The position numbers were made by a program, and so were the translations under genes. 64,000 bases of DNA from Humisphaera borealis (GTDB lineage Bacteria > Planctomycetota > Phycisphaerae > Tepidisphaerales > Tepidisphaeraceae), in assembly GCF_015169395.1 (NCBI RefSeq), contig NZ_CP063458.1:1-64000 (forward strand). The letters are read 5' to 3'. Shown here one piece after another: positions 26,015 to 58,085 of this stretch. Position 1 is the first letter of the stretch. Every line of letters begins with the position of its first letter. The notes under the pieces were generated by a model. That model did no database searches. It was not told the origin of the DNA and saw nothing but the letters and a program-made list of their open reading frames with translations.

Positions 26015-26677
26015 ATGTCGCTGCTCAACTCACGTTTGCTCAAGACAACCCTTCCCGTCCTGGCCGCGGCCGTTTTTGCCGTGCCGGCGATGGGCCAGGC
26101 CCAGCCCGCCCAGCCGGGGCAGCCCGGCCAGCCCGGGCAGCGGGGTACCGGCGGCGGCAATGGCGGCGGGACCGACGCCGAGCGTCAGGCCCGCTTCGAC
26201 CAGTTCCGTCAGCAGATGGACACCCGCATGAAGGAGGTCCTCCGCGCCAGCGACGAGGAATACGCCGTCCTCAAGCCGCGCATCGAGAAGATTCAGTCGC
26301 TGCAGCGCGCCAATGACACCCGCCGCTCGGGCTACGGCATGCTGATGAGCGGTGCCTCGAACTGGCGCACCCGCGGCAGCACGCCCGGCGACGGTCAGCG
26401 CCAGCCCAATACCACTGAAAATGCCGACCCGAACCAGCAGCGCCGCAGCCCGTTCGGCGACACGCCCACCACGCCGGTGACCGTCAAGACACAGGAGATG
26501 CAGGCGGTCCTTGAAGCCAAGGACGCCGGCAACGACACGCTCAAGGCCAAGCTCGCCGAGCTTCGCGCCGCCCGTCAGACGGCCAGGCAGGAGATGACCG
26601 CTCTTCAGGAAGAACTGCGTCAGCTCTGCTCGGTCCGCCAGGAATCGGTGCTGGTCATGCTCGGACTGCTGGAGTAG
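26015..26677 (+). CDS. Secreted helical protein of unknown function
   Basis: A 220-residue exported protein with a signal peptide (LPVLAAAVFAVPAMGQA), a Gln/Pro/Gly-rich linker (QPAQPGQPGQPGQ), and helical segments (DQFRQQMDTRMKEVL, LRAARQTARQEMTALQEEL). It is similar in style to the LTxxQ protein upstream, though I see no LTxxQ motif. The start ATG 26015 has GGAGG about 8 bases upstream. Its TAG stop is the first three bases of the family-1 palindrome at 26675. It lies between the sigma module and the secretion operon and may belong to either. Confidence 0.75.
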   Translation: MSLLNSRLLKTTLPVLAAAVFAVPAMGQAQPAQPGQPGQPGQRGTGGGNGGGTDAERQARFDQFRQQMDTRMKEVLRASDEEYAVLKPRIEKIQSLQRANDTRRSGYGMLMSGASNWRTRGSTPGDGQRQPNTTENADPNQQRRSPFGDTPTTPVTVKTQEMQAVLEAKDAGNDTLKAKLAELRAARQTARQEMTALQEELRQLCSVRQESVLVMLGLLE

Positions 26678-26697
26678 GGTCCGCCTTGGCGGACGCG
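26675..26697 (+). repeat. Family-1 palindrome supplying a TAG stop
   Basis: TAGGGTCCGCCTTGGCGGAC followed by GCG. Its first three bases are the stop codon of the secreted protein at 26015. Confidence 0.85.
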
Positions 26698-26712
26698 CCG
26701 GTTAAGGCCGCA

Positions 26713-26795
26713 AGTGCTGAGATGAAAGTGCTGAGTGCTGAGTAAAAGCACCCTTTGCGCCTTCACTCAGCACTCAGCACTTTCATCTCAGCACT
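26713..26795. repeat. Composite hairpin repeat before gspE
   Basis: A perfect 31-bp inverted repeat (arms 26713-26743 and 26765-26795) with a 21-base loop. Each arm is a tandem of AGTGCTGAG / ATGAAAGTGCTG units. It ends 9 bases before the gspE ribosome site. Confidence 0.92.
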
Positions 26796-26815
26796 CTTTG
26801 TCCGAAGGACAAACC

Positions 26816-28582
26816 TTGCAAGACATTCTGACCACGCTCACACGCCAGTCGCTGCTCGACGAAGACGCCGCGCAAGTCGCGCGGGAGCAACTCGCCGGCG
26901 GCGCGTCGCTCGATGACGCCCTCGACGTAGCGATTCATGGTGTCGACGGCGAAGCCAACGGGCAGGGCGTGGCGGCGGAGGAAAAGGTCCTCCGTTACCT
27001 CGCCGAGCAGTTCGGCCTGGCCTACGTCGAACTGGAAAACGTCAACCCGCCGCGCGAACTGCTGGCCAAGTTTCCGGCCCGCATCCTGCTCAATCACAAG
27101 CTGCTGCCGCTGGAGCAGACGCCCGATGGCGTGATCGTCGCGACCTGCCGGGTCTTCGACTCCGGCCCGCTGGACGAACTGCGCCTCGCGACCGGCCTGG
27201 AACTGCGGGCGGCGATCGCGCCGTCGCGCGAAATCGACCGCGCCGCCAAGCGCGTGCTCGGCGTCGGTGCCGACACGCTCCAGTCGATGGGCGCCGATGA
27301 CGACGACGTCAAGGTCATCGAGACCAACGACGACGACCTCGACCTCAACGCCACCGCGGCGGCGCAGGATTCGTCGATCATCAAGTTCGTCAACCAGATC
27401 ATGGCCGAGGCGCTGGAAGTGCGGGCGACCGACGTTCACGTCGAGCCGTTCGAAAACCAGCTCCGCATTCGCTACCGCGTGGACGGCGTACTGATCGAAG
27501 CGCCCATCCCGTCGAAGATCCGCAAGTATCACGCGGCGATCGTCAGCCGTCTTAAAATCCTGTCGCACTTGGACATCGCCGAGAAGCGCCTGCCGCAGGA
27601 CGGCCGCATCCGCCTGCGGGTCGCGGGGCGTGAAATCGACCTTCGCGTGTCGGTCATTCCGATGATCCACGGCGAAGCGGTGGTGCTGCGTATCCTCGAC
27701 CGCGGCGACACGGTGCTGGGCCTGGAAGCACTGGGCATGAGCGCCCGCGACAGCAACATCTGGACGAAAGTCCTCGACCTGCCGCATGGCATCATCCTGG
27801 TGACCGGCCCGACCGGCAGCGGCAAGACGACGACGCTGTACGCCGCGTTGTCGAAGATCAACCAGACCGACCTGAAGATCATCACGATCGAAGACCCGGT
27901 CGAGTATCAGCTCCGCGGCATCAACCAGATCCAGGTCAACACCAAGGCCAACCTGAGCTTCGGCGCCGGCCTGCGTGCGATCCTGCGTCACGACCCCGAC
28001 GTCGTGCTGATCGGCGAAATTCGAGACCGCGAGACGGCCGAAATTGCCGTGCAGGCGTCGCTCACCGGCCACCTGGTGTTCAGCACGCTGCACACGAACG
28101 ACGCTCCTGGTGCCACCTCACGACTGATCGACATGGGCGTCGAGCCTTACCTGGTGGCGAGTTCGGTCGAAATGATCGCAGCCCAGCGCCTGGTTCGACT
28201 GATCTGCAAGCACTGCCGCGAAGAGATCCCACAGGACGAAGTCGAGCGCATGACCGAAGGGCTCGACGATGTTCCGCGGGTGCTGTACCGCGGCCGCGGC
28301 TGCCGCAACTGTCAGAACACGGGGTATCGCGGCCGGCAGAGCGTTTTTGAAATGATGCCGGTGACGGACGAAATACGAAGCCTGATCCTGACCCGTTCGA
28401 GCAGCCGCGTGATCCGCAAAGTGGCGATCGAGCAGGGTATGAAGAGCCTGCGTCAGGACGGCTGGCGGTTGGTTGCCGCGGGCCGCACAACCGTGGACGA
28501 GGTGATCCGTATGACGAAGGACGAGAACCAGGCCGTTGGCATGGAGAAGGTGGCGAGTACTGGTGACCGAGTGATCGACTAG
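26816..28582 (+). CDS. gspE: Type II secretion ATPase GspE
   Basis: A 588-residue cytoplasmic ATPase that powers the type II secretion pseudopilus. The N-terminal domain (about 1-160) is of the T2SSE_N type. Walker A, GPTGSGKT, is at residues 331-338. The Asp box (ITIEDPVEYQL), Walker B (DPDVVLIGEIRD) and His box follow. A four-Cys zinc motif is at Cys464, Cys467, Cys496 and Cys499. TTG 26816 is taken as the start because AAGGA lies at 26805-26809; starts further upstream lie inside the hairpin repeat and read SALSSQHSLSEG-like junk. It is the first gene of the secretion operon; gspF follows after another hairpin. Confidence 0.95.
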   Translation: MQDILTTLTRQSLLDEDAAQVAREQLAGGASLDDALDVAIHGVDGEANGQGVAAEEKVLRYLAEQFGLAYVELENVNPPRELLAKFPARILLNHKLLPLEQTPDGVIVATCRVFDSGPLDELRLATGLELRAAIAPSREIDRAAKRVLGVGADTLQSMGADDDDVKVIETNDDDLDLNATAAAQDSSIIKFVNQIMAEALEVRATDVHVEPFENQLRIRYRVDGVLIEAPIPSKIRKYHAAIVSRLKILSHLDIAEKRLPQDGRIRLRVAGREIDLRVSVIPMIHGEAVVLRILDRGDTVLGLEALGMSARDSNIWTKVLDLPHGIILVTGPTGSGKTTTLYAALSKINQTDLKIITIEDPVEYQLRGINQIQVNTKANLSFGAGLRAILRHDPDVVLIGEIRDRETAEIAVQASLTGHLVFSTLHTNDAPGATSRLIDMGVEPYLVASSVEMIAAQRLVRLICKHCREEIPQDEVERMTEGLDDVPRVLYRGRGCRNCQNTGYRGRQSVFEMMPVTDEIRSLILTRSSSRVIRKVAIEQGMKSLRQDGWRLVAAGRTTVDEVIRMTKDENQAVGMEKVASTGDRVID

Positions 28583-28587
28583 CCGTT

Positions 28588-28738
28588 GGAATGACGAATG
28601 ACGAGATGCGAATGACGAGTGAAACCTCAATAACGGAAGCTTCAATCGTCGACACGTGCGGGAGTTTATTCATGCGAGTTTGAGACTTGAGTAACTGAGA
28701 TTCGTCATTCATTCGCCATTCGAGTTTCGACCTTCGTA
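28588..28738. repeat. Composite hairpin repeat, gspE-gspF junction
   Basis: The left arm (28588-28640) is a tandem of GAATGACGA / GAATGACGAG. The right arm (28692-28738) is the complement (TTCGTCATTCATTCGCCATT). Pairing is imperfect, and the junction holds nothing else. Confidence 0.75.
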
Positions 28739-28755
28739 ATTGCCCCTTATTTCCC

Positions 28756-30090
28756 ATGGCCACTTTCGCATACACAGCCATCAGCCGCGACGGGAAGCGT
28801 ACCGCTGGTACGCTTAGCGCCGACAGCCGCGCCTCGGCGATCACGCAGGTGACGCGGCAGGGGCTGCATCCGCTGAAGATCGACGAAACGCGCAACGGCG
28901 CATCGGTGCCGGTCGCGGCACCGGCGAAGCGCGTCACGCCGCCGCCGGGCAAGAAGGGCGCTTCCAAGGACGTCGCCCCGGCCAAAGCGCCGGACGGCAA
29001 GGCATCGGCGGATGCTTCGCCGGGCGGCCTGTTCGCTGCCCGCATCAATCCGAATCGCGTCTCGGGAAAACTGGTCGAAGGGTTCACGCGAGAGCTGGCG
29101 AACCTGCTGGCCGGCGGTGTGTCGCTGGCGCGGGCGCTCGGACTGCTCAAGCGCGAAGCCTCCAATCCCAACGCAAAGGCGCTCTGGAACGCGATCCACG
29201 ACGACGTGGTCGGCGGCACCGCGCTCGCCGACTCGATGGCGAAGTACCCCAAGGCGTTTTCAACCGTCTATATCGCGATGGTTCGGGCAGGCGAAGCCGG
29301 CGGCTTTCTCGACGTCGTCCTCCAGCAGATCGCCGATTTCCGCACCCGCGAAGCCGACCTCAAGGGCAAGGTCAAAGCCGCGATGGTCTACCCCATCGTG
29401 CTGGCCGTGCTTTCGGTGGTCGTCGTCATCTTCCTGCTGAGCTTTTTCATCCCGAAGTTCGCCCCGATCTTCGACCAGTTCGGCGGCAAGCTGCCGACGC
29501 TGACGAAAATGATCATCGCCGCGTCCGACCTGGTGAAAGGCTACGGCCCTTACCTGGCGGTCGGCGGGGTGATTGTTGGCGTGATGTACTACCGCTGGAT
29601 CAAGTCCGATTCGGGCCGCCGACGGGTGGAACTGATCACACTCGCCGTCCCGGTGCTGGGACGTGTTATCGCCCATTTCGCGCTGGTACGGTTCTGCCGC
29701 ATGCTGGGTACGCTGGTCGGTGCCGGCGTGCCGCTGGTGTCTTCGCTTAAGACCGCCCGCGAGGCGATCGGCAACCAGACCCTCGCCGACACCGTCAGCC
29801 ATGCGATCGAACAGGTTCAGCGTGGCGAAGCGCTGTCCAAGAGCCTGGCGAACAGCCCGCTGTTTCCCGCGTCGGTGGTCGAGACGATCGCCGTCGCCGA
29901 AGAGACCGGAAGGCTCGACAAGGAACTGGTCCGCGTCGCCACCAGTTACGAAGGCGACCTCGACCGCCAGTTGCGCATGCTTGTCGCGATCGCAGAGCCG
30001 GTCCTGCTGATCATCATGGCATCGGTGATCGGCCTGGTGGTGGTCGGTATGCTGCTGCCGGTGTTCAATATGTCGGAGTTGATCAAGTAG
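28756..30090 (+). CDS. gspF: Type II secretion inner-membrane platform protein GspF
   Basis: A 444-residue polytopic inner-membrane protein. The N-terminus is typical (MATFAYTAISRDGKRTAGTL). An Ala/Pro/Lys linker (about 55-95) leads to two T2SSF domains, each with membrane helices (VYPIVLAVLSVVVVIFLLSF; LGRVIAHFALVRFCRMLGTL; LLIIMASVIGLVVVGMLLPV). GspF couples the ATPase to pseudopilus assembly. The TAG stop is the start of the family-1 palindrome at 30088. Length and order fit the family. Confidence 0.95.
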   Translation: MATFAYTAISRDGKRTAGTLSADSRASAITQVTRQGLHPLKIDETRNGASVPVAAPAKRVTPPPGKKGASKDVAPAKAPDGKASADASPGGLFAARINPNRVSGKLVEGFTRELANLLAGGVSLARALGLLKREASNPNAKALWNAIHDDVVGGTALADSMAKYPKAFSTVYIAMVRAGEAGGFLDVVLQQIADFRTREADLKGKVKAAMVYPIVLAVLSVVVVIFLLSFFIPKFAPIFDQFGGKLPTLTKMIIAASDLVKGYGPYLAVGGVIVGVMYYRWIKSDSGRRRVELITLAVPVLGRVIAHFALVRFCRMLGTLVGAGVPLVSSLKTAREAIGNQTLADTVSHAIEQVQRGEALSKSLANSPLFPASVVETIAVAEETGRLDKELVRVATSYEGDLDRQLRMLVAIAEPVLLIIMASVIGLVVVGMLLPVFNMSELIK

Positions 30091-30168
30091 GGTCCGCCTT
30101 GGCGGACCGAAGCCGGAAGTCGAAAGTCAGTCGTCGGAGATTGCTGTAGGGTTCGCCTTGGCGGACCG
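30088..30168 (+). repeat. Family-1 palindromes, two direct copies at the gspF-gspG junction
   Basis: Copy 1 (30088-30109) starts with the gspF TAG stop. Copy 2 (30147-30168) has TTCGCC in place of TCCGCC. Both face the same way and lie before the gspG start. Confidence 0.85.
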
Positions 30169-30200
30169 ATTATCGCTCGCAAACACCAGAGGAGAAACCA

Positions 30201-30647
30201 ATGTCAGTGCATAGCCGTACACAAGTTCGTCGCGTTCGTCGTTCCGCGTTTACCCTGATCGAACTGCTGCTCGTGCTGGTCATCCTGGCGGTGCTGGCGG
30301 CGATCGTGGTGCCGAAGTTCACCGGCCGTACCGACGACGCCAAGATCGGCGCTGCCAAGACCACGGTGCGCACGATCGAAGGTGCGCTAGACCTGTTCGA
30401 ACAGGACAACGGCCGCTACCCGACGACCGAAGAAGGCATTCGCGCCCTGATCGAAATGCCGGCGAATGTCACGAATTGGAAGGCCCCGTACTTCAAGGGC
30501 GACACCAAGGACCCCTGGGGCAACGAATACGGCTACCGCTACCCCGGTACCGTCAACACCCACGGGCCTGACGTCTTCTCGTTCGGCAAGGACGGCAAGG
30601 AAGGCGGCGGCGACGACTTGGGCAACTGGGTGACCGAGACCAAGTAA
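30201..30647 (+). CDS. gspG: Major pseudopilin GspG
   Basis: A 148-residue type II secretion major pseudopilin, the main subunit of the periplasmic pseudopilus. It has a short basic leader, a prepilin peptidase site before FTLIELLLVLVILA (Glu5 present), then a single long N-terminal helix. The globular part has the family's DLFEQDNGRYPTTEEG and DPWGNEYGYRYPG motifs. Acidic residues near the C-terminus (KDGKEGGGDDLGNW) fit the calcium site of GspG. GAGGAG lies just before ATG 30201. A prepilin peptidase gene is not in the window. Confidence 0.96.
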   Translation: MSVHSRTQVRRVRRSAFTLIELLLVLVILAVLAAIVVPKFTGRTDDAKIGAAKTTVRTIEGALDLFEQDNGRYPTTEEGIRALIEMPANVTNWKAPYFKGDTKDPWGNEYGYRYPGTVNTHGPDVFSFGKDGKEGGGDDLGNWVTETK

Positions 30648-30667
30648 TCCCCGGCGGACCGCTGTTG

Positions 30668-30787
30668 TAGGGTCCGCCTTGACGGACCGTTGCGCTCGCG
30701 TGACGTGTCCGCCGGAGCAGACCCTGCGAATGCACGGATCAAGTGTGCGCCGGTGCGGCCCACGCGTCCGCCAAGGCGGACCCTACG
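30668..30787. repeat. Family-1 palindromes, inverted pair at the gspG-gspH junction
   Basis: A forward copy at 30668-30689 (with TTGACGG in place of TTGGCGG) faces a reverse copy at 30763-30787. The reverse copy ends 1 base before the gspH ATG, so it occupies the place of a ribosome site. Confidence 0.85.
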
Positions 30788-30788
30788 A

Positions 30789-31373
30789 ATGCAAGTCGTC
30801 GTCAAGCAATCTCGCCGGGCCTTCACGCTGCTCGAGCTCATCCTCGTGCTGCTGGTGATGGCGATCATGGTCGCGATGGCGATCCCGGCGATGCGGGGCC
30901 TGGCGGCGGGGCGCGGGGCGGACGAGTGCGCGGGGCAGATGTTGGCGCTGGCCCACTACGCCCGCTCGCAGGCGATCGCCGAAGGCGTGAACTACCGGCT
31001 CAATATCGACCCGACGAACAAGGTGTATTACCTGACCAAGTTCTACAGCGATCCACTCGACGCAAGCGCCGCCCCGGGTTTCTACGAACTGGGCGTCGAG
31101 ATGGGATCCGTCTTTCGCGCGCCCGCCGACGTGACGCTCGAATGGGACAACGCCTACGCATCGCTGCAGTTGCAGAACGCGGCGGCGACTGGGCAGATTC
31201 TGCCGGAGAAGATCGGCAGCGATGTGCCGTTCGTCGAGTTTACGCCGTCGGGCCGTACCGATGCCTGCCTGATCCGCGTCATCGACCGCGACGGCACGGT
31301 CACGCAGGTGGTCTGTCCGTCGGCGACGGAAACGATTCGAGTCATTCGGCCGGACGGAAGGATCAGGAGCTGA
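30789..31373 (+). CDS. gspH: Minor pseudopilin GspH
   Basis: A 194-residue pseudopilin. A ~10-residue basic leader is followed by FTLLELILVLLVMAI, the prepilin cleavage site and helix. The C-terminal part has the beta-rich globular pattern of GspH/FimT proteins (PFVEFTPSGRTDACLIRV). The ATG at 30789 lies one base after a family-1 palindrome; GGCGGA inside the palindrome is the only purine-rich stretch that could serve as a ribosome site. The open frame extends upstream through the repeat but does not look coding there. gspI starts 3 bases after its stop. Confidence 0.9.
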   Translation: MQVVVKQSRRAFTLLELILVLLVMAIMVAMAIPAMRGLAAGRGADECAGQMLALAHYARSQAIAEGVNYRLNIDPTNKVYYLTKFYSDPLDASAAPGFYELGVEMGSVFRAPADVTLEWDNAYASLQLQNAAATGQILPEKIGSDVPFVEFTPSGRTDACLIRVIDRDGTVTQVVCPSATETIRVIRPDGRIRS

Positions 31374-31375
31374 TC

Positions 31376-31918
31376 ATGATGAGGCACGAAGGCATGAAGG
31401 CACGCAGGCACAAGGGAGGCGCATCACCGCGCTCCCTTAGTGCCTCCGTGCCTCCGTGCCCCCGTGCCTCCTCCCGCAGTGCCTCCTCCCGCCGTGCCTC
31501 TGCTCGTCGAAACCGAGGCTTCACGCTTGTGGAAGTCCTCGCCACCATCCTGATGCTGGCGATCATCGTGCCGGTGGCGATGCAGGCGGTGAGCCTGGCG
31601 ACTGGCATCTCCGGCGCGGCCCGCCACCGCGCCGAAGCCGCCGCGCTGGCCGAATCGCAACTGGCGTTCCTGATGACCAGCGGCGAGTGGCAGACCGGCA
31701 CGCTGCAAGGCGACTTCGCGCAGCAGGGCTTTCCGGAGTACCAGTGGTACGCCAGCGTCGGCAACTGGACGGAAGCCAACGTGCAGCAGCTGGACGTGAT
31801 GGTCCTCTGGACGACGCCCCGGCGGGGCGAGGAATCGGTTGTCGTCTCCACGCTGGTCTACCAGCTGGGAGCCGACGACAGTACCGGTGACGCGGCCGCG
31901 ACAGGAGCGACGCCGTAG
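31376..31918 (+). CDS. gspI: Minor pseudopilin GspI, leader built from repeats
   Basis: A 180-residue pseudopilin if ATG 31376 is used. The prepilin site is NRG-FTLVEVLATILMLAI with Glu5. The region before it is about 48 residues long and consists of translated repeats (MKARRHKGG, VPPCPRASSRSASSRRASAR). A GTG in the repeat (at about 31448) would shorten the leader to about 22 residues, more typical. The globular part has WYASVGNWTEANVQQLDV, as in GspI. It starts 3 bases after gspH, so the two are probably coupled. Its TAG stop is followed by a 7-bp hairpin. Confidence 0.85.
   Translation: MMRHEGMKARRHKGGASPRSLSASVPPCPRASSRSASSRRASARRNRGFTLVEVLATILMLAIIVPVAMQAVSLATGISGAARHRAEAAALAESQLAFLMTSGEWQTGTLQGDFAQQGFPEYQWYASVGNWTEANVQQLDVMVLWTTPRRGEESVVVSTLVYQLGADDSTGDAAATGATP
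31380..31500. repeat. Composite hairpin repeat inside the 5' end of gspI
   Basis: The left arm (31380-31420) is a tandem of GGCACGAAGGCATGAA-like units. The right arm (31437-31500) is a tandem of GTGCCTCC units. The arms are roughly complementary. The whole block lies within the apparent gspI coding frame. Confidence 0.75.
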
Positions 31919-31935
31919 CGACGGCTTTGCCGTCG
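31919..31935. terminator. Small hairpin right after the gspI stop
   Basis: CGACGGC-TTT-GCCGTCG is a perfect 7-bp stem with a 3-base loop, starting the base after the gspI TAG. There is no T-run, so it is more likely an mRNA-processing or stability hairpin than an intrinsic terminator. Confidence 0.55.
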
Positions 31936-32064
31936 TGAAGTCAGAAGTCAGAAGTCGGAAAAGAAATGCGACCTGTATCGACCGCAATCTCGCCCGCCTC
32001 ACACTTCGACTGTTTCGATGCGCCTTGTCCTATTCTGACTCCTGACTTCCGACTCCCGACTTCG
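31934..32064. repeat. Composite hairpin repeat, gspI-gspJ junction
   Basis: The left arm (31936-31961) is a tandem of GAAGTCAGAAGTCAGAAGTC. The right arm (32030-32064) is a tandem of CTGACTCCTGACTTCCGACT. The right arm lies inside the apparent leader of gspJ. Confidence 0.78.
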
Positions 32065-32763
32065 GCGCGGCGAAGCCGCGCATTCACCCTTCTGGAACTC
32101 CTCGCCGCGATCTCCCTCGTGGCGCTGATCGGTCTTTCGCTTTTTGCCACGCTGCGGATTGCCACCCGAGCGCGGGACAGTTCCGAAGCATTGCTCGAAC
32201 CGCAGCGGACTGCCGACCTGGCGTTCGAGATGATTCGTCAGGATCTGGAGAATGCCCAGCCGCCGTCGGGCGTGTTGTCGGCGACGTTCACCGGCGGCGA
32301 CTTCCGCGACGGCCGCGGCCGTGACGGCGACACCGTCCGGTTCTTCACCACCAGCAAAGGCCCGCAGCACGAAAGCGGTGACGGCGACATTCGCCGGGTC
32401 GAGTACCTCTGCCTGGCGTCCGACGGCAACGACACCCAGGGCGAGTACATGCTCGTTCGCCGGGTCATTCACAACCTGCTCTCCCCGTTCGAACCGCCGG
32501 CCGACGACGAAGTCATCCTGCGCGGCATCGGTGGCTTCGATCTTCAGTTCTGGGACGGTGCCCTTGGCACTTGGGTGCCCACGTGGGAATCGGCCCAGCA
32601 GAACAACAGCGTTCCGATGGCGATCCAGGTGTCGATCGACCTCGACCGCACCCAGCTCGTCGACGGCCAGTCGCAGGTCGTCACCCGGCGGTTCGTGCGT
32701 GTCGTTCAGCTCCCGTGTGCAATTCCGGCGCAAAACACCAGCGGATTGGGGACGGGACGATGA
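31966..32763 (+). CDS. gspJ: Minor pseudopilin GspJ
   Basis: A 265-residue pseudopilin. The prepilin site lies before FTLLELLAAISLVALIG. The leader from ATG 31966 is about 38 residues, longer than usual, and its second half (CPILTPDFRLPTSARR) is translated repeat. A later non-ATG start is possible. The globular domain has the GspJ-like stretch ERTADLAFEM-type helix (QRTADLAFEMIRQDLENAQP) and a C-terminal beta-rich part (VILRGIGGFDLQFWDG). The stop overlaps the gspK start (ATGA), indicating coupling. Confidence 0.86.
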   Translation: MRPVSTAISPASHFDCFDAPCPILTPDFRLPTSARRSRAFTLLELLAAISLVALIGLSLFATLRIATRARDSSEALLEPQRTADLAFEMIRQDLENAQPPSGVLSATFTGGDFRDGRGRDGDTVRFFTTSKGPQHESGDGDIRRVEYLCLASDGNDTQGEYMLVRRVIHNLLSPFEPPADDEVILRGIGGFDLQFWDGALGTWVPTWESAQQNNSVPMAIQVSIDLDRTQLVDGQSQVVTRRFVRVVQLPCAIPAQNTSGLGTGR

Positions 32764-34313
32764 TGACGCAGCGAAGAAGCAAGATCACCACGGAGGCACG
32801 GAGACACGGAGGTGTTTCCGGTGCACCACGCTATGCCTGCGATGAGAAGAAGGCTTTTAGCTTTGAATCGCCGTCGGATCCTGTCTCGGCGGTGATCCCT
32901 CCGTGTCTCCGTGCCTCCGTGGTGACGTCTTCGTCCCGCCGTCATGGCACGATTCTGGTGATGGTGCTCTGGGGCATGATCGTCCTCACCGGCATCATCC
33001 TGGTGTTCGGGCGAACGGTGCAGGTGGAGGCGATTTCGTCGAACAACCGCGTATCGACAATCCAGACGGCCGCTATCCTGCGCGGGGCAGAGCAGTATGT
33101 GCTGTCGCTGGTCGAAAATGCCGCCGGCGATCCCACCTACGTCGTCGACGCCAGTTCCGAGGCGATGGCCGTCGGCACGAATCCCGTCGACGGTCGGCCG
33201 ATGGGCTACTTCTGGATCATCAAGCCCGATACCGGCAACCCCGAGCTGACCGCGTTCGGGCTGGTGGATGAAAGCTCCAAGATCAATCTCAACAACGCCA
33301 GCCGGGAGACGCTGATGAAGCTCCCGAAGATGACCGAGGACATCGCCGACTCGATCATCGACTGGCGCGACACCGACGAGAACGTCACCAACCAGGGCGC
33401 TGAAAGCTCCTACTACTCCAACCTTCCGCAAGGCTACAACGCCAAGAACGACCGGTTCGAAGCGATCGAAGAGCTGCGACTTGTTCTTCAGCCGCGGCTG
33501 AAGGATGCGCGGCTGGTGGACGAGTTCCTCTACGGCTACGACCTCAATCATGACGGCGTCATGAGCGCCCGTGAGACCAGCGCCGGCGGGATGTCGTCGG
33601 CATTCAGCTCGGCGACGAACGACGGGCGGGGCATCGCGCCGTTCGTCACCGTTTACAGCGTCGAAGCCAACACCAACACCGGCCGGACCGACGTCAACGG
33701 CGACTCGAACCAGCTCCGCGACGCGATGCGGAAGATCTTCCAGCGCACCCGCGCCGACCAGATCGTCCAGCTCGCGACCACCGGCCCGGCCCCGCCGGGC
33801 GGTCGGCGGTTCGCCAACGTGTTCGATTTCTGTGGCAAGGGCACGATGTCCCCCCAGGAAGTCCGCCAGGCATACGACAAGCTGCACGCCAACCAGGGCC
33901 GCACCGCGACCGGGCGGGTGAACCTGAACACCGCGCCGCGCGAGGTGTTGCTGGCGATGCCCGGGCTTGAGGAACAGGACGTCGATAAGCTACTCAGCGC
34001 CCGCAATGCAGAAACCGGCACGTCACTGGCGTGGGTCTACGAGGCGATCGGCCCGCAAAAGGCGGCGGCGATCGGGTCGCTGCTGACCAACAAGAGCTAC
34101 CAATACTCGGCGGACATCGTCGCGATGAGTTCCAACGGGAAGAGCTTCAAACGGATCAGGATCATCGCCGACGCCCGCCGAACGCCGGCCAGGATTGTGT
34201 ATCGCAAAGACCTGAGCGACCTGGGTTGGCCGCTGGACGAGAGCATCCGGTATTCATTGCAGCAGGGCGGCGTGCTCGACACGCCGTTCGGGTCGGGCGG
34301 AAGTGCGTTTTAG
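32760..34313 (+). CDS. gspK: Pseudopilus tip protein GspK
   Basis: A 517-residue protein. The leader from ATG 32760 is about 65 residues and contains translated hairpin repeats (TTEARRHGG and IPPCLRASVV). The membrane helix is ILVMVLWGMIVLTGIILVFG. The body has two Asn-rich helix-hairpin-helix motifs (INLNNASRETLMKLPKMTED; VNLNTAPREVLLAMPGLEEQ), as in GspK. Between them, DYDLNHDGVMSARE-type sequence (in YGYDLNHDGVMSARE) is an EF-hand-like calcium loop. GspK caps the pseudopilus with GspI and GspJ. It overlaps the gspJ stop by 4 bases. Later in-frame starts closer to the helix cannot be excluded. Confidence 0.9.
   Translation: MMTQRRSKITTEARRHGGVSGAPRYACDEKKAFSFESPSDPVSAVIPPCLRASVVTSSSRRHGTILVMVLWGMIVLTGIILVFGRTVQVEAISSNNRVSTIQTAAILRGAEQYVLSLVENAAGDPTYVVDASSEAMAVGTNPVDGRPMGYFWIIKPDTGNPELTAFGLVDESSKINLNNASRETLMKLPKMTEDIADSIIDWRDTDENVTNQGAESSYYSNLPQGYNAKNDRFEAIEELRLVLQPRLKDARLVDEFLYGYDLNHDGVMSARETSAGGMSSAFSSATNDGRGIAPFVTVYSVEANTNTGRTDVNGDSNQLRDAMRKIFQRTRADQIVQLATTGPAPPGGRRFANVFDFCGKGTMSPQEVRQAYDKLHANQGRTATGRVNLNTAPREVLLAMPGLEEQDVDKLLSARNAETGTSLAWVYEAIGPQKAAAIGSLLTNKSYQYSADIVAMSSNGKSFKRIRIIADARRTPARIVYRKDLSDLGWPLDESIRYSLQQGGVLDTPFGSGGSAF
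32785..32925. repeat. Composite hairpin repeat inside the 5' end of gspK
   Basis: The left arm (32785-32812) and right arm (32898-32925) are perfectly complementary over 28 bases, built from CACGGAGG and CACGGAGA units. About 85 bases separate the arms. Both lie in the apparent leader-coding part of gspK. Confidence 0.9.
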
Positions 34314-34614
34314 CGGCATGGGCCTCGGTCAACCCCGGAAAATGCGGTTAACCACGGAGGACACAGAGAGCACGGAGAGGAAACACGAAGGGTTCCGCCC
34401 TCGAACGGATCGAGAAGAAGATCTGAGATCTGAGACCTGGCGATGTCTCCCCGTGTTTTCCCTCCGTGACCTCCATGTCCTCCGTGGGGAGCACCCTTCG
34501 GGGTGTGCATTCGACGGCCTTCGGAGCGTGTTCTAGGACGAAGCGAGCGGGCGTAAGTGGCACAGACGGAAGTTTTTACCACCGCCCGGCAACCATACTT
34601 GAGAGAACCAACGC
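34314..34614. other. gspK-gspL junction, no gene
   Basis: The 301 bases hold the composite hairpin at 34348-34487 and then about 125 bases with nothing recognised before the GTG start of the GspL-like gene. Confidence 0.5.
34348..34487. repeat. Composite hairpin repeat, gspK-gspL junction
   Basis: The left arm (34348-34393) is built from CACGGAGGACACAGAGAG-type units. The right arm (34448-34487) reads CTCCCCGTG, CCTCCGTGAC, CTCCATGTCCTCCGTGG. The centre has a direct repeat AGATCTGAGATCTGAGA (34419-34436). The unit resembles the one in gspK. Confidence 0.78.
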
Positions 34615-36153
34615 GTGGCGCAAAGAACCGGACAGAACAAGTTCCTTGGAGTGGCGATCGGCGAGAAGTCGCTCGTCATCGCCGAGGCCTCGCGCAGCGG
34701 GAATGCCCCGGCTGGCTCATCGCCTCTGGGCGCGGCGACCGGCCGCGTGACGCAGGCCGCCACGTTCGTCTACCCAGCCGGCGTGACGCTCGATACCCCC
34801 GAACCGTTGGGCAGCGCGTTGGGTGCATTCCTCAAGGAACGCGGGTTTGCCGCCCGGCATGTGGTCGTCGGCGTGCCGGCCCGGTGGGTGCTCAGCAAGC
34901 CCAAGGAAGTCCCCCCGGCCGACCCTGACCTCATCGCCGAGGCATTGCGGCTTCAGGTCGAGGGTGAGTTCAGCCAGGAACTACAGAACCTCGTTTTCGA
35001 TTACGCCGGTGAGATCAGCCCCACCGAGCCGCGCAATGTGCTGCTGGTCGCGATCCAGGACAAGTACCTGGAACAGATCAAGGCGATGACGTCAGCGGCG
35101 AAGCTGACACTGTCGGCGGTGACACCCGTGGGCTGTGTGCTCGGTGCTGCAGCCGGTACCGCCTCGGGGAAATCCCGGTCGGCGTTGGTCGTGTCGGTCG
35201 GCCCTGGTGGAATCGAACTGATCGCCCAGGACGGCGCATCGCCGCGGGCCCTGCGTCATCTGGGCGCGGCGGGCACGTCGGCGGGCATCCTCGCCGGCGA
35301 ACTTCGTCGGGCGACCTTTGCCGCGGGCAAGATGGACGCCTCGGCGTCCGCCAACGGCAACGGCTCGGCCGTCAACGGCAAGGGCGTCAATGGCAATGGT
35401 CATCACGGCCCGGCGCTGGTCGTCTGGGACGACCTGACCCTCACCGATCCGTCCCGGCAGGCACTGGCCGATGCGGTCGGCGCTCGACTGGAAAGCGGCA
35501 ATCTCGAAACACTGGGCGTGCCCGCCGGCCTGACCGGTGGCCCGCGCGACGCCGCCTCTCCCAGCCTTGCCGGCGCGGCGGCACTTGCCGTCGCCGCCGT
35601 CACCGAACAGGACAGCTCGGCGTCCGTCTGGCCGGCCGACTTCCTGCATTCGCGCCTGGCCGCCCCGAAAAAGGGGGGCATCAACCGCAAGACGGTGCTC
35701 ATCGCCGCCGGCGTGTTCGTTGTTCTCCTGCTGGCCGTTGTCGCGTACCTCGATCTGCAGTCCAGCCAGAGTCGTCTCAGCGACCTCGAAGCCGAGCAGG
35801 TCGGACAGAAGGACCGCGTCAAGGCGGCCGAGGCGTTCGTCAAGCGTGTCGGATACGCCGAGAAATGGCACCAGGGCAAGCCGCGCTTCCTGACCTGTCT
35901 TTATGGCTTGTCTCAAGCGATTCCCGAAGACGGCAAGACCTATGTCACCAACATCACGCTGAAGGAAAACATGAAGGGCACGCTCACCGGCCGCACCGGC
36001 GGGTCGGAACGCGACGTAACCGCGATCGTGGACCGTATGCTTAAGACCAAGCTGTTCACCGGCGTGAAAGCGCCGCAGATCGACAAGCGCGATGTCGGCC
36101 GAGGCGGTGGAACGGAAATCGCGTTTACGATCGAGTTCGTGTGTGTGCCTTAG
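34615..36153 (+). CDS. GspL-like protein fusing PilM-like and PilN-like parts
   Basis: A 512-residue protein. Residues about 1-330 are an actin-like PilM/GspL cytoplasmic domain (FLGVAIGEKSLVIAEAS; PARWVLSKPKEVP; ALVVSVGPGGIELIAQDG), interrupted by an Asn/Gly-rich insert at about 245-262 (SANGNGSAVNGKGVNGNG). One transmembrane helix lies at about 360-382 (VLIAAGVFVVLLLAVVAYL). A periplasmic coiled coil and a ferredoxin-like C-terminal domain follow, as in PilN/GspL. The start is GTG 34615. In type II systems GspL links the ATPase to GspM at the inner membrane. Assignment by architecture and position. Confidence 0.82.
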   Translation: MAQRTGQNKFLGVAIGEKSLVIAEASRSGNAPAGSSPLGAATGRVTQAATFVYPAGVTLDTPEPLGSALGAFLKERGFAARHVVVGVPARWVLSKPKEVPPADPDLIAEALRLQVEGEFSQELQNLVFDYAGEISPTEPRNVLLVAIQDKYLEQIKAMTSAAKLTLSAVTPVGCVLGAAAGTASGKSRSALVVSVGPGGIELIAQDGASPRALRHLGAAGTSAGILAGELRRATFAAGKMDASASANGNGSAVNGKGVNGNGHHGPALVVWDDLTLTDPSRQALADAVGARLESGNLETLGVPAGLTGGPRDAASPSLAGAAALAVAAVTEQDSSASVWPADFLHSRLAAPKKGGINRKTVLIAAGVFVVLLLAVVAYLDLQSSQSRLSDLEAEQVGQKDRVKAAEAFVKRVGYAEKWHQGKPRFLTCLYGLSQAIPEDGKTYVTNITLKENMKGTLTGRTGGSERDVTAIVDRMLKTKLFTGVKAPQIDKRDVGRGGGTEIAFTIEFVCVP

Positions 36154-36155
36154 GG

Positions 36156-36282
36156 AGTAGTCAGTGGTCGGTAGTCAGTGGTCAGAAAAGCCAAGTCGTC
36201 GTCCCTGACCCAGATTACTGATTTCTGCCTACTGCCTGCTGACTGCTGACTACTGACTACTGACTACTGACTACTGACTACT
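36156..36282. repeat. Composite hairpin repeat, gspL-gspM junction
   Basis: The left arm (36156-36186) is GTAGTCAGTGGTCG units. The right arm (36226-36282) is a longer tandem of CTGACTACTGACTACT units, with at least five copies of a 7-8 bp word. It ends 8 bases before the gspM-like ATG. Confidence 0.85.
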
Positions 36283-36290
36283 CCGCCATC

Positions 36291-36899
36291 ATGAACAACA
36301 TGTCCCCCCGCGAACGTTCGCTTGCCCTGATCGTCCTCAGCGTGGTCGGTGTGGCCCTGCTTTATCAGTTCGTGATCGATCCCTACTTCCAGAAGCGTCG
36401 CGAACTGAAGGCGGCGATCGAACTGAAGGAAGACGAGCTGAACCGCAATCGCAAGCTATTCAATGACGAGAAACGCCTTAAGGCCGTGCTGACCAACCTG
36501 AACGCCGGCGGTTTGAAGACCGATGTCGCCGAGGCCCGCAGCCAGCTGCTCTACGCCATCAGCAGCTGGACGAAGGATTCGGGGGTGAACTTGTCGTCGC
36601 TCAAGGAGGGTCGCACCACCAGCGAAGGCAAATGGATCCAGATCAATACCCAGGCCAGCGGCACCGGCCCGCAGAAGGCGATCGCGAATCTGTTGTGGCG
36701 GGTGGAGACGGCGTCGATCCCGGTGCGCGTGACCGAAATGACCGTCAATTCCCGTCGCGAGGGGACCGACGACCTGCAGATCAACCTGGGCGTGTCAACG
36801 CTCTGTGCCAACCCCGACGGTGACAAGCCCGAGACGCCCGGTCGCCGACCCGTCGCCTCGATCTACGGAAGCAGCGTCGCAAGCGGGAGAGAGCCGTGA
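36291..36899 (+). CDS. GspM/PilO-like assembly protein
   Basis: A 202-residue bitopic membrane protein. One transmembrane helix lies at about 10-28 (LALIVLSVVGVALLYQFVI). A coiled coil follows (FQKRRELKAAIELKEDELNR), then a ferredoxin-like periplasmic domain (PQKAIANLLWRVETASIPVR) typical of PilO/GspM. It probably pairs with the GspL-like protein. It starts 8 bases after a hairpin; no good ribosome site is visible in between. The TGA stop overlaps the next ATG by one base. Confidence 0.82.
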   Translation: MNNMSPRERSLALIVLSVVGVALLYQFVIDPYFQKRRELKAAIELKEDELNRNRKLFNDEKRLKAVLTNLNAGGLKTDVAEARSQLLYAISSWTKDSGVNLSSLKEGRTTSEGKWIQINTQASGTGPQKAIANLLWRVETASIPVRVTEMTVNSRREGTDDLQINLGVSTLCANPDGDKPETPGRRPVASIYGSSVASGREP

Positions 36900-38233
36900 T
36901 GAAACCGCAATCCATTCGCATCGTCCTGGTGGCCGCCGCTTCGCTCGCGCTGGGTAGTTGGCTGACCGGCGTGTTCGCGCAGCAGGAGCCGTCGGCCGCG
37001 CCCGCGGGTGCCGCCAAGCCCGCCACCCGCCCGGTGTTCGTGCCGCCACTGGCACCCGGGGCCGCTGCCAATCGCGGTGATCCGGGACCCGATCCGGTCG
37101 AGGACGAGGACGAGAAGCCAGCCCCCGAGACATCGGCGTCCACACCGGGTGCGCCGCCGGCAGCTGCCCCCGCATCCGGCGGATCGTCCGCTGCGCCGCC
37201 GGCAGGTCAGGTTGCGCCCACCACCCCGGCGACCGGGCCGGCCCATCCGTCAACCTCTCCTTCGACGTCTCCGTCGGCCGACCATGCGGCGGATACGACC
37301 GCCGCCGGCCCCGGCACTCAGCCGTCCACCTCGCCGACCGGCGTTGCCGAGGCACCGACCTCGCGTCCGAGCGGCAGCGGGTATTCCAAGTCGAGCAAGA
37401 GCCGGTTCGGCTCTTCCGGCCGCGATCGCGAAGCGGGCGGCGAACCGACAACCCGTCCGACGGCGTCGGATGTGGCGGCGGTGCCCGCGATGGCGTCCAA
37501 GCCGTTTGATAAAAAGTATGAGGTCCTGCTGGCCAGGAGCCTTTTCAGCAAGGAGCGCCCCAAGGCACCGTTCACCGGTCCGCCGCCGGGCCCCAGGGAA
37601 ACGATCGTGGTGAAGCCGCCGGAACCGCCGGCCCCCGAAAAGAGCATGGCCGTTCGCGGCATGAGCATCGAAGGCGAAGGCGACGAGGACGACGCCTGCT
37701 ACGCGTTCATCGAGGACCTTCCGCTCAAGACCATGAAGCGGGTGAAGAAGGGTGACAAGGTGGCGCGGGGCGTGGTGGTCGAGGTCACCCTGGCGGATCT
37801 GGTGTATGAGTTTGAAGGCAAGCGCACGCGGGTGCCGATCGGGCACACGCTCGACGGCGCGCCAGCCCCTGCGATCACCTGGAGCACCTACACGCCAGTG
37901 GCGACCGCGCCGCCGGCGGGATCACCGGGATCGTCCGGGTCTCGAGGCGGTGGCAATGATCCGCGTGGTGGAGACTCCCGCGGAGGCGATCCCCGTGGAG
38001 GCGATCCTCGTGGCGGTGACCGTGCCTCGTCCGGCGGCGGCTCGCCGCCACCGGCGGCCCCCGCGGTTGTCGCTACGCCGGGCACGCCGACAGCCACTCC
38101 GACACCAGCCGTTCCCGCCGCGACGGGCGGCACCGCACCCGCCACGCCAGCAGCGACTCCCGCGCCGGCGGGTGCGGCCGACGATCTTTTGGAACGAATG
38201 CGAAAGCGCCGCGAACAGGAAAGCGGACGCTGA
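36899..38233 (+). CDS. GspC/PilP-like periplasmic linker protein
   Basis: A 444-residue protein. The N-terminal hydrophobic segment (IRIVLVAAASLALGSWLTGV) is an anchor or signal. Residues about 30-180 are Ala/Pro/Ser/Thr-rich and disordered. Residues about 200-330 form a small beta domain (YEVLLARSLFSKERPKAPF; KSMAVRGMSIEGEGDEDDAC; VKKGDKVARGVVVEVTLADL) that resembles the homology region of GspC and PilP, which contacts the secretin. The C-terminus is Gly/Arg/Asp- then Pro/Ala-rich, with tandem GGDPRGGD-like repeats at about 375-390. It sits between the GspM-like gene and gspD, as expected for this role. No PDZ domain is seen. Confidence 0.75.
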   Translation: MKPQSIRIVLVAAASLALGSWLTGVFAQQEPSAAPAGAAKPATRPVFVPPLAPGAAANRGDPGPDPVEDEDEKPAPETSASTPGAPPAAAPASGGSSAAPPAGQVAPTTPATGPAHPSTSPSTSPSADHAADTTAAGPGTQPSTSPTGVAEAPTSRPSGSGYSKSSKSRFGSSGRDREAGGEPTTRPTASDVAAVPAMASKPFDKKYEVLLARSLFSKERPKAPFTGPPPGPRETIVVKPPEPPAPEKSMAVRGMSIEGEGDEDDACYAFIEDLPLKTMKRVKKGDKVARGVVVEVTLADLVYEFEGKRTRVPIGHTLDGAPAPAITWSTYTPVATAPPAGSPGSSGSRGGGNDPRGGDSRGGDPRGGDPRGGDRASSGGGSPPPAAPAVVATPGTPTATPTPAVPAATGGTAPATPAATPAPAGAADDLLERMRKRREQESGR

Positions 38234-38422
38234 GCGTGCGCGTCACCGGGCGGTCGCGGAGCGATCCGCACCAGCGCCGCGCGTGATCAATAGAGGCAGA
38301 CTTTGTTTTCCCCGTGTCCTTCGCGGCCGCGTCTCGGACGCGTGTTCGGCGTGACGCGGCGGCGCATGACTCGGATTGTTTCATGCGGTGAGTTTATTTC
38401 GGGCGAAGAAGGGCAATCGGGT

Positions 38423-41212
38423 ATGCGCACCAATTTGCGTTCGGCAGTCGTGGCGGGATTGAGCGGTCTGGCACTCATTGGTGGGACCTGGCTCCTGGCA
38501 CAGCCCGCGCCCACGCCGCCGGCGACTGGTCCTTCGGTCAATGCCTCCACCAGGCCGGCGACGCAGATCGCGATGAAGTTCGAGAACGCGCCGATCGACA
38601 CGGTGCTGAACTACGTCGCCGAGACCACCGGCTACACGATCCTCAAGGAAACGCCCGGCGCGATCGAAGGCCGCATCTCCATCAACAGCCCCAAGCCCGT
38701 GACGCCCGCCGAGGCGGTCACGCTGCTCAATGCCGTCCTGCGGACCCAGGGCTTTGCCGCCATCCAGCAGGACCGGCTGCTGAAGATCGTCACCCGCGAC
38801 AAGGCCAAGAAGCTGACCGACGTCTTCTTCGGGTCCGATCCGGCGCTGATCCCCGACACCGACGAACTGATCACCCAGGTCATTCCGCTCCGCAGCGTCG
38901 AGGCGACGCGGCTGCGGCAGGACCTGGCGTCGATGATCCCGATCGACGCCGACGTCGCCGCCAACGCCGGCAGCAACGCGATCATTATCACCGACGTGTC
39001 CAGCAACATTAAGCGGGTGGTGAAGATCGTCCACGAACTCGACAAAGACGCCGGCACGAGCGATCTGAAGACCTTTAAACTGACGAACGCCAGCGCCAGC
39101 CAGGTGGCGACGCTCCTGTTGTCGATCTTCAAGACGACGGCCACCAGCAGCAGTTCTTCTCGAGGCAGCAGCGGCGGGTTCGGGCCGCCGGGATTCAGTT
39201 TCGGCGGCGGCGACCCGCGCAGCGATCGGGACCGTGGCGGTGGTGGCGGCAGCAGTGGCAGCGGCGCGGTCGACCGCGCGCTCAAGGAAGGCCGCATCAA
39301 CGCAGTCGCCGACGACCGCACCAACACACTCATCGTCAGCGGTCCGCCCGACACGCTGAAGCTGATGGAAGGCATTATCGAGAAGCTCGACAAGAGTACC
39401 GACATTTCGCTGGGCCTGGAGACCTTCAATCTCACCTACGCCGATTCGACCAGTGCCGCAAAGCTGATTAACTCGGTGTTCGCGGTAGGTCAGAGCACGT
39501 CGGGCAGCTCCTCGTCCCGCAGCAGCGACGGCAGCAGCGACCGTAGTGATCGTGGCAGTCCCCGGCCCGATCCGTCGGCGGCGGCATCGGCCGGCATCTC
39601 GGGCGTCGATGCCGCACTCCGCGGCGGCAAGGTGAATGCCGTCGCCGACGAACGCACGAACTCCATCATCGTCACCGCGCCGCCCGAGGCGCTTCCGCTG
39701 ATCAAGAAGATGGTCTCCGACCTCGACAAGAACCCCATCAGCGAGCAGTCGTTCTTCATCTACCCACTGCGCAACGGACAGGCGCTTCAGCTCGAGTACG
39801 TGCTGAACGTGCTCTTCGGCAACAGCACCAGCGGCGGAACGGCCAACCGTACCAGCGCCTCCAGCCGCACCGGTGCGAACAGCCGGACCGGTGGCAGTGG
39901 TACCAGCGGCATCGGCGGTTCGGGAGGCATCGGTGGAACCGGGTCCACGAGCCGTGCCGGCGGCACCGGCAGCGGTTCCAGCCGTGGCACAACCAGCTTC
40001 GGCGGCACCTCCGGCTTCGGGGGTACCAACGGTCAGTTCGGCGGTGCCGGCGGGCAGCTCTCAGGCCAGAACCAGCGCGTCGCCAGTGACCTCACCGGCC
40101 AGGTGCTGGTCGTCGCCGACGAAGACACCAACTCGCTGCTGGTCACCGTCGCCACCCGCTATGCCGACCCCGTCAAGCAGATCATCGCGGAACTCGACCG
40201 CCCTCGCCCCCAGGTGCTGATCAAGGTTCTCGTCGCGGAAGTAACGCACGACGACTCGGTCGATTTCGGCGTCGATTTCTCGATCATTAACCGCCGGGCC
40301 AACGGCCAGGGGATTACCGTCGGAAGCGCCTTCGGCAACGCAACAGCCACCACCGGCCTGGTCGTCAGCCTGCTGGAAGACAAACTGAACATGACGCTGC
40401 ACGCGCTGGCCACGAACGGCAAGCTCGACGTGCTGTCGCGTCCGTACATCCTGGCGAGCGACAACCAGCTCGCGAGCATCACCGTCGGCAACGAAGTGCC
40501 GTTCATCACCAACACCCGCATCACCGACACCGGCCAGACGATCAACACGATCCAGTACCAGGACGTCGGCATCATTCTGAACGTGCTGCCGCACATTAAT
40601 CCGGACGGCCTGGTCATCATGGACGTGGTCCCCGAGATCAGCCAGCTCACCGGCACTACGGTGCCGATCAGCGACAACGTCAGCGCCCCGGTCATCGCCA
40701 AGCGATCGGCCGAGAGCCGTGTGGGCGTGCGGACGGGGCAGACCATTGTCATCGGCGGTCTGATGGAAGACCGAAAGACGAGCACCATCAACAAGATTCC
40801 GCTTCTGGGTGACATCCCGGTCATCGGGCCGGCGGTGTTCTCGCGGACGCAGGTCACCAAGAGCAAGACCGAACTGCTCATCTTCCTGACGCCGCACGTC
40901 GCCCAGCAGCCCGATCTGCTGGAGAGCGCGACCGAGCAGGAGAAGAAGACGCTGAAGCTGACGCCCAAGAGCGTGGCCCCCGGCAAGTTCGACGAACATC
41001 TGGACGGCATGCGGACCGGCGAGATGCCCTCGAGCCAGCCGGCCAACGCGAAGGAGCCGAGCAAGAACATCCCGATTCCGCCGCGGGTCCCGAGCCAGAG
41101 CCCGTCGAACCCGGGAATGCAGCAGCAGGTTCCGCAGGTGCCGTCGTTCCAGCCCGGCAGCTACGGCCCGCCGGCACCGACGGCCCCCGGCGGCCAGGCG
41201 GCGGCGGGGTGA
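38423..41212 (+). CDS. gspD: Type II secretion secretin GspD
   Basis: A 929-residue outer-membrane channel protein. A signal peptide (VVAGLSGLALIGGTWLLAQ) leads to N0 (about 50-125) and N1-N3 domains, then a secretin domain at about 600-820 with VGVRTGQTIVIGGLMEDRKT and PLLGDIPVIGPAVFSRTQVT. The N-domains contain long Ser/Gly-rich inserts (SSSSRGSSGGFG; SSSRSSDGSSDRSDRGS; SSRTGANSRTGGSG), making the protein longer than the usual 650-700. The C-terminus is Pro/Gln-rich. ATG 38423 is chosen because the signal peptide begins there; GAAGGGC lies upstream. It is the last core gene of the operon. Confidence 0.94.
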   Translation: MRTNLRSAVVAGLSGLALIGGTWLLAQPAPTPPATGPSVNASTRPATQIAMKFENAPIDTVLNYVAETTGYTILKETPGAIEGRISINSPKPVTPAEAVTLLNAVLRTQGFAAIQQDRLLKIVTRDKAKKLTDVFFGSDPALIPDTDELITQVIPLRSVEATRLRQDLASMIPIDADVAANAGSNAIIITDVSSNIKRVVKIVHELDKDAGTSDLKTFKLTNASASQVATLLLSIFKTTATSSSSSRGSSGGFGPPGFSFGGGDPRSDRDRGGGGGSSGSGAVDRALKEGRINAVADDRTNTLIVSGPPDTLKLMEGIIEKLDKSTDISLGLETFNLTYADSTSAAKLINSVFAVGQSTSGSSSSRSSDGSSDRSDRGSPRPDPSAAASAGISGVDAALRGGKVNAVADERTNSIIVTAPPEALPLIKKMVSDLDKNPISEQSFFIYPLRNGQALQLEYVLNVLFGNSTSGGTANRTSASSRTGANSRTGGSGTSGIGGSGGIGGTGSTSRAGGTGSGSSRGTTSFGGTSGFGGTNGQFGGAGGQLSGQNQRVASDLTGQVLVVADEDTNSLLVTVATRYADPVKQIIAELDRPRPQVLIKVLVAEVTHDDSVDFGVDFSIINRRANGQGITVGSAFGNATATTGLVVSLLEDKLNMTLHALATNGKLDVLSRPYILASDNQLASITVGNEVPFITNTRITDTGQTINTIQYQDVGIILNVLPHINPDGLVIMDVVPEISQLTGTTVPISDNVSAPVIAKRSAESRVGVRTGQTIVIGGLMEDRKTSTINKIPLLGDIPVIGPAVFSRTQVTKSKTELLIFLTPHVAQQPDLLESATEQEKKTLKLTPKSVAPGKFDEHLDGMRTGEMPSSQPANAKEPSKNIPIPPRVPSQSPSNPGMQQQVPQVPSFQPGSYGPPAPTAPGGQAAAG

Positions 41213-44403: not shown

Positions 44404-44409
44404 TTTGTC

Positions 44410-44601
44410 CCCTCTCCCCTGTACTCGGGGGAGAGGGTCAGGGTGAGGGGCCGAACGTACGGCGTCATGACTCGCCGAAGAGAGCCCCGCGGCTTTGTCG
44501 AGGGATTATCGCCTCGAACGCGGAAAGGTCTCCGCGCAGATGGCGCTGCCCGACGTTCGGCCCCTCACCCCATCCCTCTCCCCCGAGTACAGGGGAGAGG
44601 G
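44410..44601. repeat. 49-base inverted repeat between the DUF1549 and DUF1501 genes
   Basis: The left arm (44410-44458) begins CCCTCTCCCCTGTACTCGGG and the right arm (44553-44601) ends GAGTACAGGGGAGAGGG, with nearly complete complementarity, including a CCGAACGT end. The loop is about 94 bases. The right arm ends about 14 bases before the DUF1501 ATG. Confidence 0.88.
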
Positions 44602-44614
44602 GGAAAGACCGACG

Positions 44615-57941: not shown

Positions 57942-58085
57942 TGGTCATTTGTCACGGTTGCTGGCTCTGTAGGGTCCGCCTTGGCGGACGCGTTCGCTGT
58001 ACCTTCCCGGGTTATGCCGGACGCCAGGGGCCGTCAACGTCCGCCAAGGCGGACCCTACGGGACCAGTGACCAGTGACCAATGAC
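57935..58085. repeat. Nested hairpin: composite arms around a family-1 inverted pair
   Basis: The outer arms are GTCATTGGTCACTGGTCA-type (57935-57958) and ACCAGTGACCAGTGACCAAT-type (58061-58085), with an inner inverted pair of family-1 palindromes (57970-57992 and 58030-58050). The whole block folds as one long stem. It spans the region between the methyltransferase start and the stop of the next gene (58089). Confidence 0.8.

Follow-up and report, generated by a model that had tools for sequence, protein, structure and literature searches.

Hairpins at the gene junctions of a type II secretion operon in Humisphaera borealis as probable insertions of short dispersed palindromic elements

GTAG-REPs, which have been described in Planctomycetes among other bacteria and are linked to Y1 transposases (RAYT and TIRYT), are dispersed short palindromes tagged by GTAG and found 3′ of genes (PMC3733652). 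The intervening sequences (IVS) of 23S rRNA, considered to be selfish, are about 430–450 nt long, have complementary ends that form a stem, are excised by RNase III and optionally encode a four-helix-bundle protein, IVP (PMC4990558), a homologue of the Avd protein found in diversity-generating retroelements (PMC10053308). Finally, tandem heptamers such as TAACTGA occur between genes with a patchy distribution across phyla that includes Beggiatoaceae, Cyanobacteria and Bacteroidetes (PMC4679880). Features of all these systems are seen in the stretch analysed here, a 64-kb window of the 7.19-Mb single-contig genome of Humisphaera borealis (NZ_CP063458.1), in which hairpin-forming repeats stand at consecutive junctions of a type II secretion system (T2SS) operon, gspE-F-G-H-I-J-K-L-M-C-D (26816..41212, forward strand; delimited by open reading frames, Pfam and gene order in relatives). 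Each of these hairpins probably arose by its own insertion of a short palindromic element of a dispersed kind, and the elements would belong to three superfamilies.

Inverted repeats, reported at nine places by an earlier note on this DNA, are present at all of them, seven being far above every shuffle when local inverted-repeat alignments with gaps are scored and each junction is compared with 200 dinucleotide shuffles of itself. The two perfect stems that the note had read are exactly as described: 31 bp before gspE (26713..26795; tandem GTGCTGA heptamers, score 32, z 23.7) and 28 bp at J-K (32785..32925; octamer CACGGAGR, score 28, z 18.7). They are followed by L-M (36154..36284; heptamer GTAGTCA, beginning right at the end of the gspL stop codon; score 24.5, z 18.5), H-I (31378..31473; octamer GGCACGAA, score 23, z 14.8), K-L (34352..34487; 9-mer CACGGAGNN, score 21, z 12.8), G-H (30667..30786; a GTAG-REP pair in inverted orientation, score 18.5, z 9.9) and I-J (31932..32053; heptamer GAAGTCA, score 16.5, z 8.1). 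The E-F element (28590..28741) has degenerate GAATGAC heptamer arms (score 14, z 6.3, best shuffle 11), and F-G is the weakest of the nine (score 10.5, z 3.7, best shuffle 10) because an 18-bp palindrome is present there twice in direct orientation (30087..30108 and 30146..30167, both forward) instead of a pair of arms. At M-C the genes abut, and C-D scores 12.5, the same as its best shuffle. As RNA, eight of the nine junctions fold more stably than every shuffle (−90.8 kcal/mol for J-K, −70.6 for L-M and −62.3 before E), the exception being the degenerate E-F element, whose fold is no better than those of shuffles (z −0.97). An Rfam search of the operon matched no family. The left arm at J-K (32785–32925) contains a Shine-Dalgarno-like GGAGG and its right arm an anti-Shine-Dalgarno-like CCTCC.

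Although the units differ between many of the junctions, as had been claimed, they are in part shared: GTAGGGTCCGCC occurs at F-G, at G-H and where the gene preceding gspE stops, and CACGGAG at both J-K and K-L. That the two arms at one junction match holds true: in CACGGAG and CRCGAAG, the two largest tandem families, arms are more alike within an element than between elements (permutation p 2e-4), which is not so for GTAG-REPs (p 0.75). Tandem elements therefore behave as units or are palindrome-corrected, and REPs behave singly.

The families at these junctions are dispersed throughout the genome. In a systematic sample of forty evenly spaced 20-kb pieces (800 kb, L040 included), on which alone the rates quoted here are based (additional loci having been picked partly near known copies), there are 135 inverted repeats of score at least 16 versus none in shuffled sequence, and 119 of them are intergenic; with up to three mismatches allowed, the whole genome contains 112 occurrences of the arm unit of J-K. 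Between genes separated by 100–310 nt, a repeat of score at least 14 is found in 36% of co-directional, 59% of convergent and 8% of divergent cases, a distribution that supports the suggestion of an element targeting gene ends. Such repeats occupy 20% of all co-directional junctions in the sample, versus eight of nine in the operon (p 2e-5 against the overall co-directional rate and 2e-3 given gap lengths, both uncorrected for the operon having been picked as striking). A local factor, for example tolerant leaders, may contribute to this density.

The operon was also compared with that of relatives, a check that the earlier note had named. About 15 genomes from the family and class share the gene order E-F-G-H-I-J-K-L-M-C-D, and their junctions are mostly overlapping or short, without inverted repeat. 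In a congener (G001), E-F, the stretch between H and J, and J-K are occupied by other families, while repeats are found at G-H, H-I and J-K in G016, and before E and at J-K in G020, family and junction both varying. The hairpins are therefore lineage-specific additions to a compact, hairpin-poor operon whose junctions are tolerated places, and the notion that they are a regular operon feature setting the processing, stability or ratio of pseudopilin mRNAs is not supported, since most relatives' operons are hairpin-free and the others have other families at other junctions.

The first putative superfamily would comprise GTAG-REPs (F-G, G-H and the stop before gspE), a kind tied to Y1/HUH RAYT transposases. 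At 26674, 30087, 30146 and 30667, GTAG is followed by GGTCCGCC, TT and GGCGGACC, which places GTAG at one end of a short palindrome, a trait of GTAG-REPs, and these copies resemble described GTAG-REPs (PMC3733652) also in their dispersal and in their position between co-directional or convergent genes. The TAG of the half-element at 26674..26694 (forward strand; sequence and family census) serves as stop codon to the gene that precedes gspE, and that of the first F-G copy (30088–30090) terminates gspF, the second copy lying ahead of gspG. The sample holds 87 copies of this GTAGGG family, of which at least 44 are at or within 300 nt 3′ of a stop codon, and in 21 of the 87 the TAG is itself the stop of the upstream gene, as it is in the window at 26674–26677, 30087–30090 and 46066–46069. 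The REP-like family represented here is GTAG plus GGTCCGCCTTGGCGGACC, with other palindromic-arm families elsewhere in the genome. Y1 genes account for 11 matches in the genome, four of them (L076, L079, L080 and L082) lying between four different REP-type repeat families, with which each possibly forms a cognate pair. Strong inverted repeats, of the palindromic non-tandem kind, flank 17 of 21 Y1 genes tested, in agreement with what is described for RAYT and TIRYT elements (PMC3733652). No Y1 gene flanked by the exact GTAG-REP unit of the operon was seen in this genome; in another member of the family (L259), a Y1 gene is flanked by TAGGGTCCGC repeats.

The remaining elements differ from GTAG-REPs (PMC3733652) in having neither the GTAG tag nor a Y1 link, and two other gene families are associated with their kind. 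Arms made of tandem 7–10-mers have a fixed polarity, the 5′ arm being purine-rich in 73 of 82 cases in this genome. A scan of species genomes for the CACGGAG array listed matches in Acidobacteria, Planctomycetes, Verrucomicrobia, Cyanobacteria, Proteobacteria, Chloroflexi, Nitrospiria, Bacteroidetes, Armatimonadetes, Spirochaetes and others, and among the matches listed, 59 of the 62 that are inside a detected inverted repeat point inward; a few hits (L180 and L196) resemble plain tandem repeats without a partner. Long-spaced pairs of such arms enclosed a gene for the four-helix-bundle IVP (L088) or for a GxxExxY protein (L245), both families being confirmed. In H. borealis, all four GxxExxY genes lie between tandem arms (spans of 446–538 bp), and so do IVP genes, of which there are four, two being clear cases and one more a likely case.

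This association is not confined to one genome. With a threshold of 17 for the arm score (14.8 being the 95th percentile when flanks from separate loci are joined), flanking arms are found in Phycisphaerae at 27 of 30 GxxExxY and 22 of 27 IVP genes, and at none of 24 gspE controls; in other phyla, where genomes were chosen as holders of the CACGGAG array, the figures are 14/22 and 18/26. Among 88 small genes picked at random only 5 pass; the arms are of the REP type in four, and the fifth, with tandem-type arms, is itself a GxxExxY gene. The two families of genes have different arms: the period is 8–10 in 29/29 GxxExxY arms versus 7 in 34/43 IVP arms (Fisher 2e-12), and a CRCNRAK-like word is present in 40/46 of the former versus 4/45 of the latter. 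Some words at the T2SS junctions are found at these genes, including GAAGTCA (I-J) at an IVP gene of this genome (6607281), GGCACGAA (H-I) at another (1525427), and CACGGAG (J-K and K-L) at GxxExxY genes of Geothrix, Rhodospirillales and Spirochaetota. The operon's hairpins would thus fall into a superfamily with tandem-heptamer arms (before E, E-F, I-J and L-M), whose gene-bearing relatives carry IVP, and another with tandem 8–10-mers of the CRCNRAK type (J-K, K-L and probably H-I), whose relatives mostly carry the PD-(D/E)XK-like GxxExxY, the operon copies being putative gene-less derivatives of gene-bearing elements. Elsewhere in the genome (5522783–5523367, L415), CACGGAG arms stand 585 nt apart around an open reading frame of about 150 aa, and such arms may carry cargo besides GxxExxY or IVP; a resemblance of this frame to SUKH proteins, suggested by eye, was dropped since Pfam gave no match.

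Comparison with the described systems brings out both likenesses and differences. Like IVSs (PMC4990558), the heptamer hairpins have complementary ends in a long stem (weak at E-F), but IVSs sit in rRNA helices from which RNase III excises them, whereas the elements described here are at gene junctions of an mRNA, have tandem-heptamer arms and are mostly gene-less, no IVP gene having been found in the T2SS loops. TAACTGA-type repeats (PMC4679880) are likewise tandem intergenic heptamers, patchy across phyla, but they were described as directly repeated units close to start codons, for which a role in translation was suggested and neither inverted pairing nor an IVP link is reported. Rickettsia palindromic elements (discussed in PMC3733652), compared by description only, are also palindromic inserts read in frame within proteins, the difference being that in-frame copies here are in a leader predicted to be removed. 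With respect to miniature inverted-repeat transposable elements, there are gene-bearing relatives with like arms, but neither protein is a known transposase, and the elements lack a target-site duplication. No description of tandem inverted arms tied to IVP or GxxExxY genes was found in the open-access literature searched, which does not in itself prove novelty.

The link to two gene families has implications reaching beyond this operon, since it offers a likely origin for patchy cross-phylum heptamer repeats that had been reported without mechanism, and makes it possible to test (i) which proteins and arms form binding pairs and (ii) whether the elements move. The homology of IVP to Avd (a weak Avd match was also obtained here) and its role in IVSs suggest that the life style may be RNA-level. 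It is possible, although we propose this tentatively, that tandem 7–10-mer inverted-arm elements form two related selfish classes spanning phyla, one with the Avd-like IVP and one with the nuclease-like GxxExxY, which might spread in an undescribed manner, perhaps via RNA and a reverse transcriptase acting in trans (IVP) or homing-like cutting (GxxExxY). The IVP class would then include the IVSs of rRNA as one particular form, and bacterial mRNAs would widely contain copies without a gene that have been overlooked.

Within the operon, the position of the elements relative to pseudopilin genes deserves attention. Pseudopilins start with a short leader that is cut off by prepilin peptidase. Pfam backs the names of gspE, F, G, J, K and D, while H and I match the N-methylation motif only and L a sub-threshold PilN model only. 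The elements had been placed at gene boundaries, which is not strictly the case for H-I and J-K, since both lie within the open frame of the downstream pseudopilin. The start codon of gspK overlaps the gspJ stop by 4 nt, likewise in six relatives, and the element comes next without breaking the frame, so that the leader would have about 62 residues (MMTQRRSKITTEARRHGG...SSSRRHGTILV). For gspI, ATG codons and a Shine-Dalgarno-like sequence are found just 3′ of the gspH stop, in a frame that crosses the element to RGFTLVE, and for gspJ the sole start codon of the open frame (31966) sits in the hairpin loop. GTG codons in the right arms at I and K are alternative starts, the frames through the elements being open. 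As read from these frames, in-frame elements of I, J and K may be tolerated since the leader is removed by the peptidase. More generally, elements would be found at junctions and in pseudopilin leaders because insertion is tolerated there and selected against in mature coding sequence. An element of this kind may account for recurrent N-terminal extensions in predicted proteins, such as TTEARRHGG. In one relative (G002, L054), the gspK leader has a different long repeat-like insert, an independent in-frame leader insertion.

How do other explanations fare? Selection for a regulatory or processing function of the hairpins in this operon (RNase III sites, 3′-end protection or control of pseudopilin ratios) would fit their folding, their density at consecutive junctions and the presence of an RNase III gene in the genome, but they are not kept in relatives with the same operon, the same families lie genome-wide beside unrelated genes, and cutting at the three elements in open reading frames would destroy the message, which makes this very improbable. 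Somewhat less remote, yet still unlikely, is domestication, that is, chance mobile insertions later kept for mRNA segmentation; the density exceeds the genome rate and long stems suit RNase III, but comparative evidence of maintenance is absent among the relatives compared, and the finding that in the congener some of these junctions are occupied by different families fits tolerance equally well. On the reading that we favour, the long RNA hairpins of the inserted elements may plausibly be cut by RNase III, as in rRNA IVSs, any consequence for the operon being a side effect; an incidental effect on the operon mRNA is possible given that all but one of the nine are more stable as RNA than any of their shuffles.

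If slippage and template switching had made the palindromes where they now stand, with no mobile element involved, palindrome correction would give the greater likeness of arms within elements of the tandem families, but such an origin hardly accounts for unit words and inward polarity recurring across phyla or for the link to two specific protein families; we regard it as highly improbable, although template switching could maintain arms that are already present. A single machinery, in which Y1/HUH RAYT or TIRYT transposases move all the elements including tandem-arm ones, could appeal to the Y1 genes of this genome and their frequent inverted-repeat flanks. However, the arms at the 21 Y1 genes are palindromic and belong neither to the tandem CRCNRAK kind nor to the heptamer one, ownership of tandem arms by Y1 transposases being unsupported, and tandem arms accompany IVP and GxxExxY genes, so this too is quite unlikely. 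Insertion of mobile elements, which we favour, must nevertheless face several adverse points: (i) the gene-less T2SS loops hold no convincing open reading frame or gene remnant (best E-value 0.17), (ii) there is no target-site duplication, flank identity of 2–9 nt being at chance level, (iii) no empty insertion site was found at base resolution, (iv) neither IVP nor GxxExxY is a known transposase family, (v) the genomes from other phyla were selected for their CACGGAG array and (vi) the excess over the genome rate might be a sign of selection or of a local preference. Because of (i) and (ii), it is the arms alone that speak for descent from gene-bearing copies.

Whatever their origin, nine strong hairpins make this operon a model for their effect on a polycistronic mRNA. 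Nested elements number 4 versus about 17 expected in a test biased by the removal of overlapping repeats, therefore we make no claim on a preference for inserting into loops of other elements. At 57930–58085, a GTAG-REP pair lies in the loop of a heptamer inverted repeat (GTCATTG/GTCACTG), two families thus being nested concentrically. Two more large inverted-repeat families, which recur elsewhere in the genome, are found in the window at 44409–44602 (CCCCTCTCCCC...GGGGAGAGGGG) and 9861–9987 (GGTGGGGCAGGCATTCTTGCCTG).

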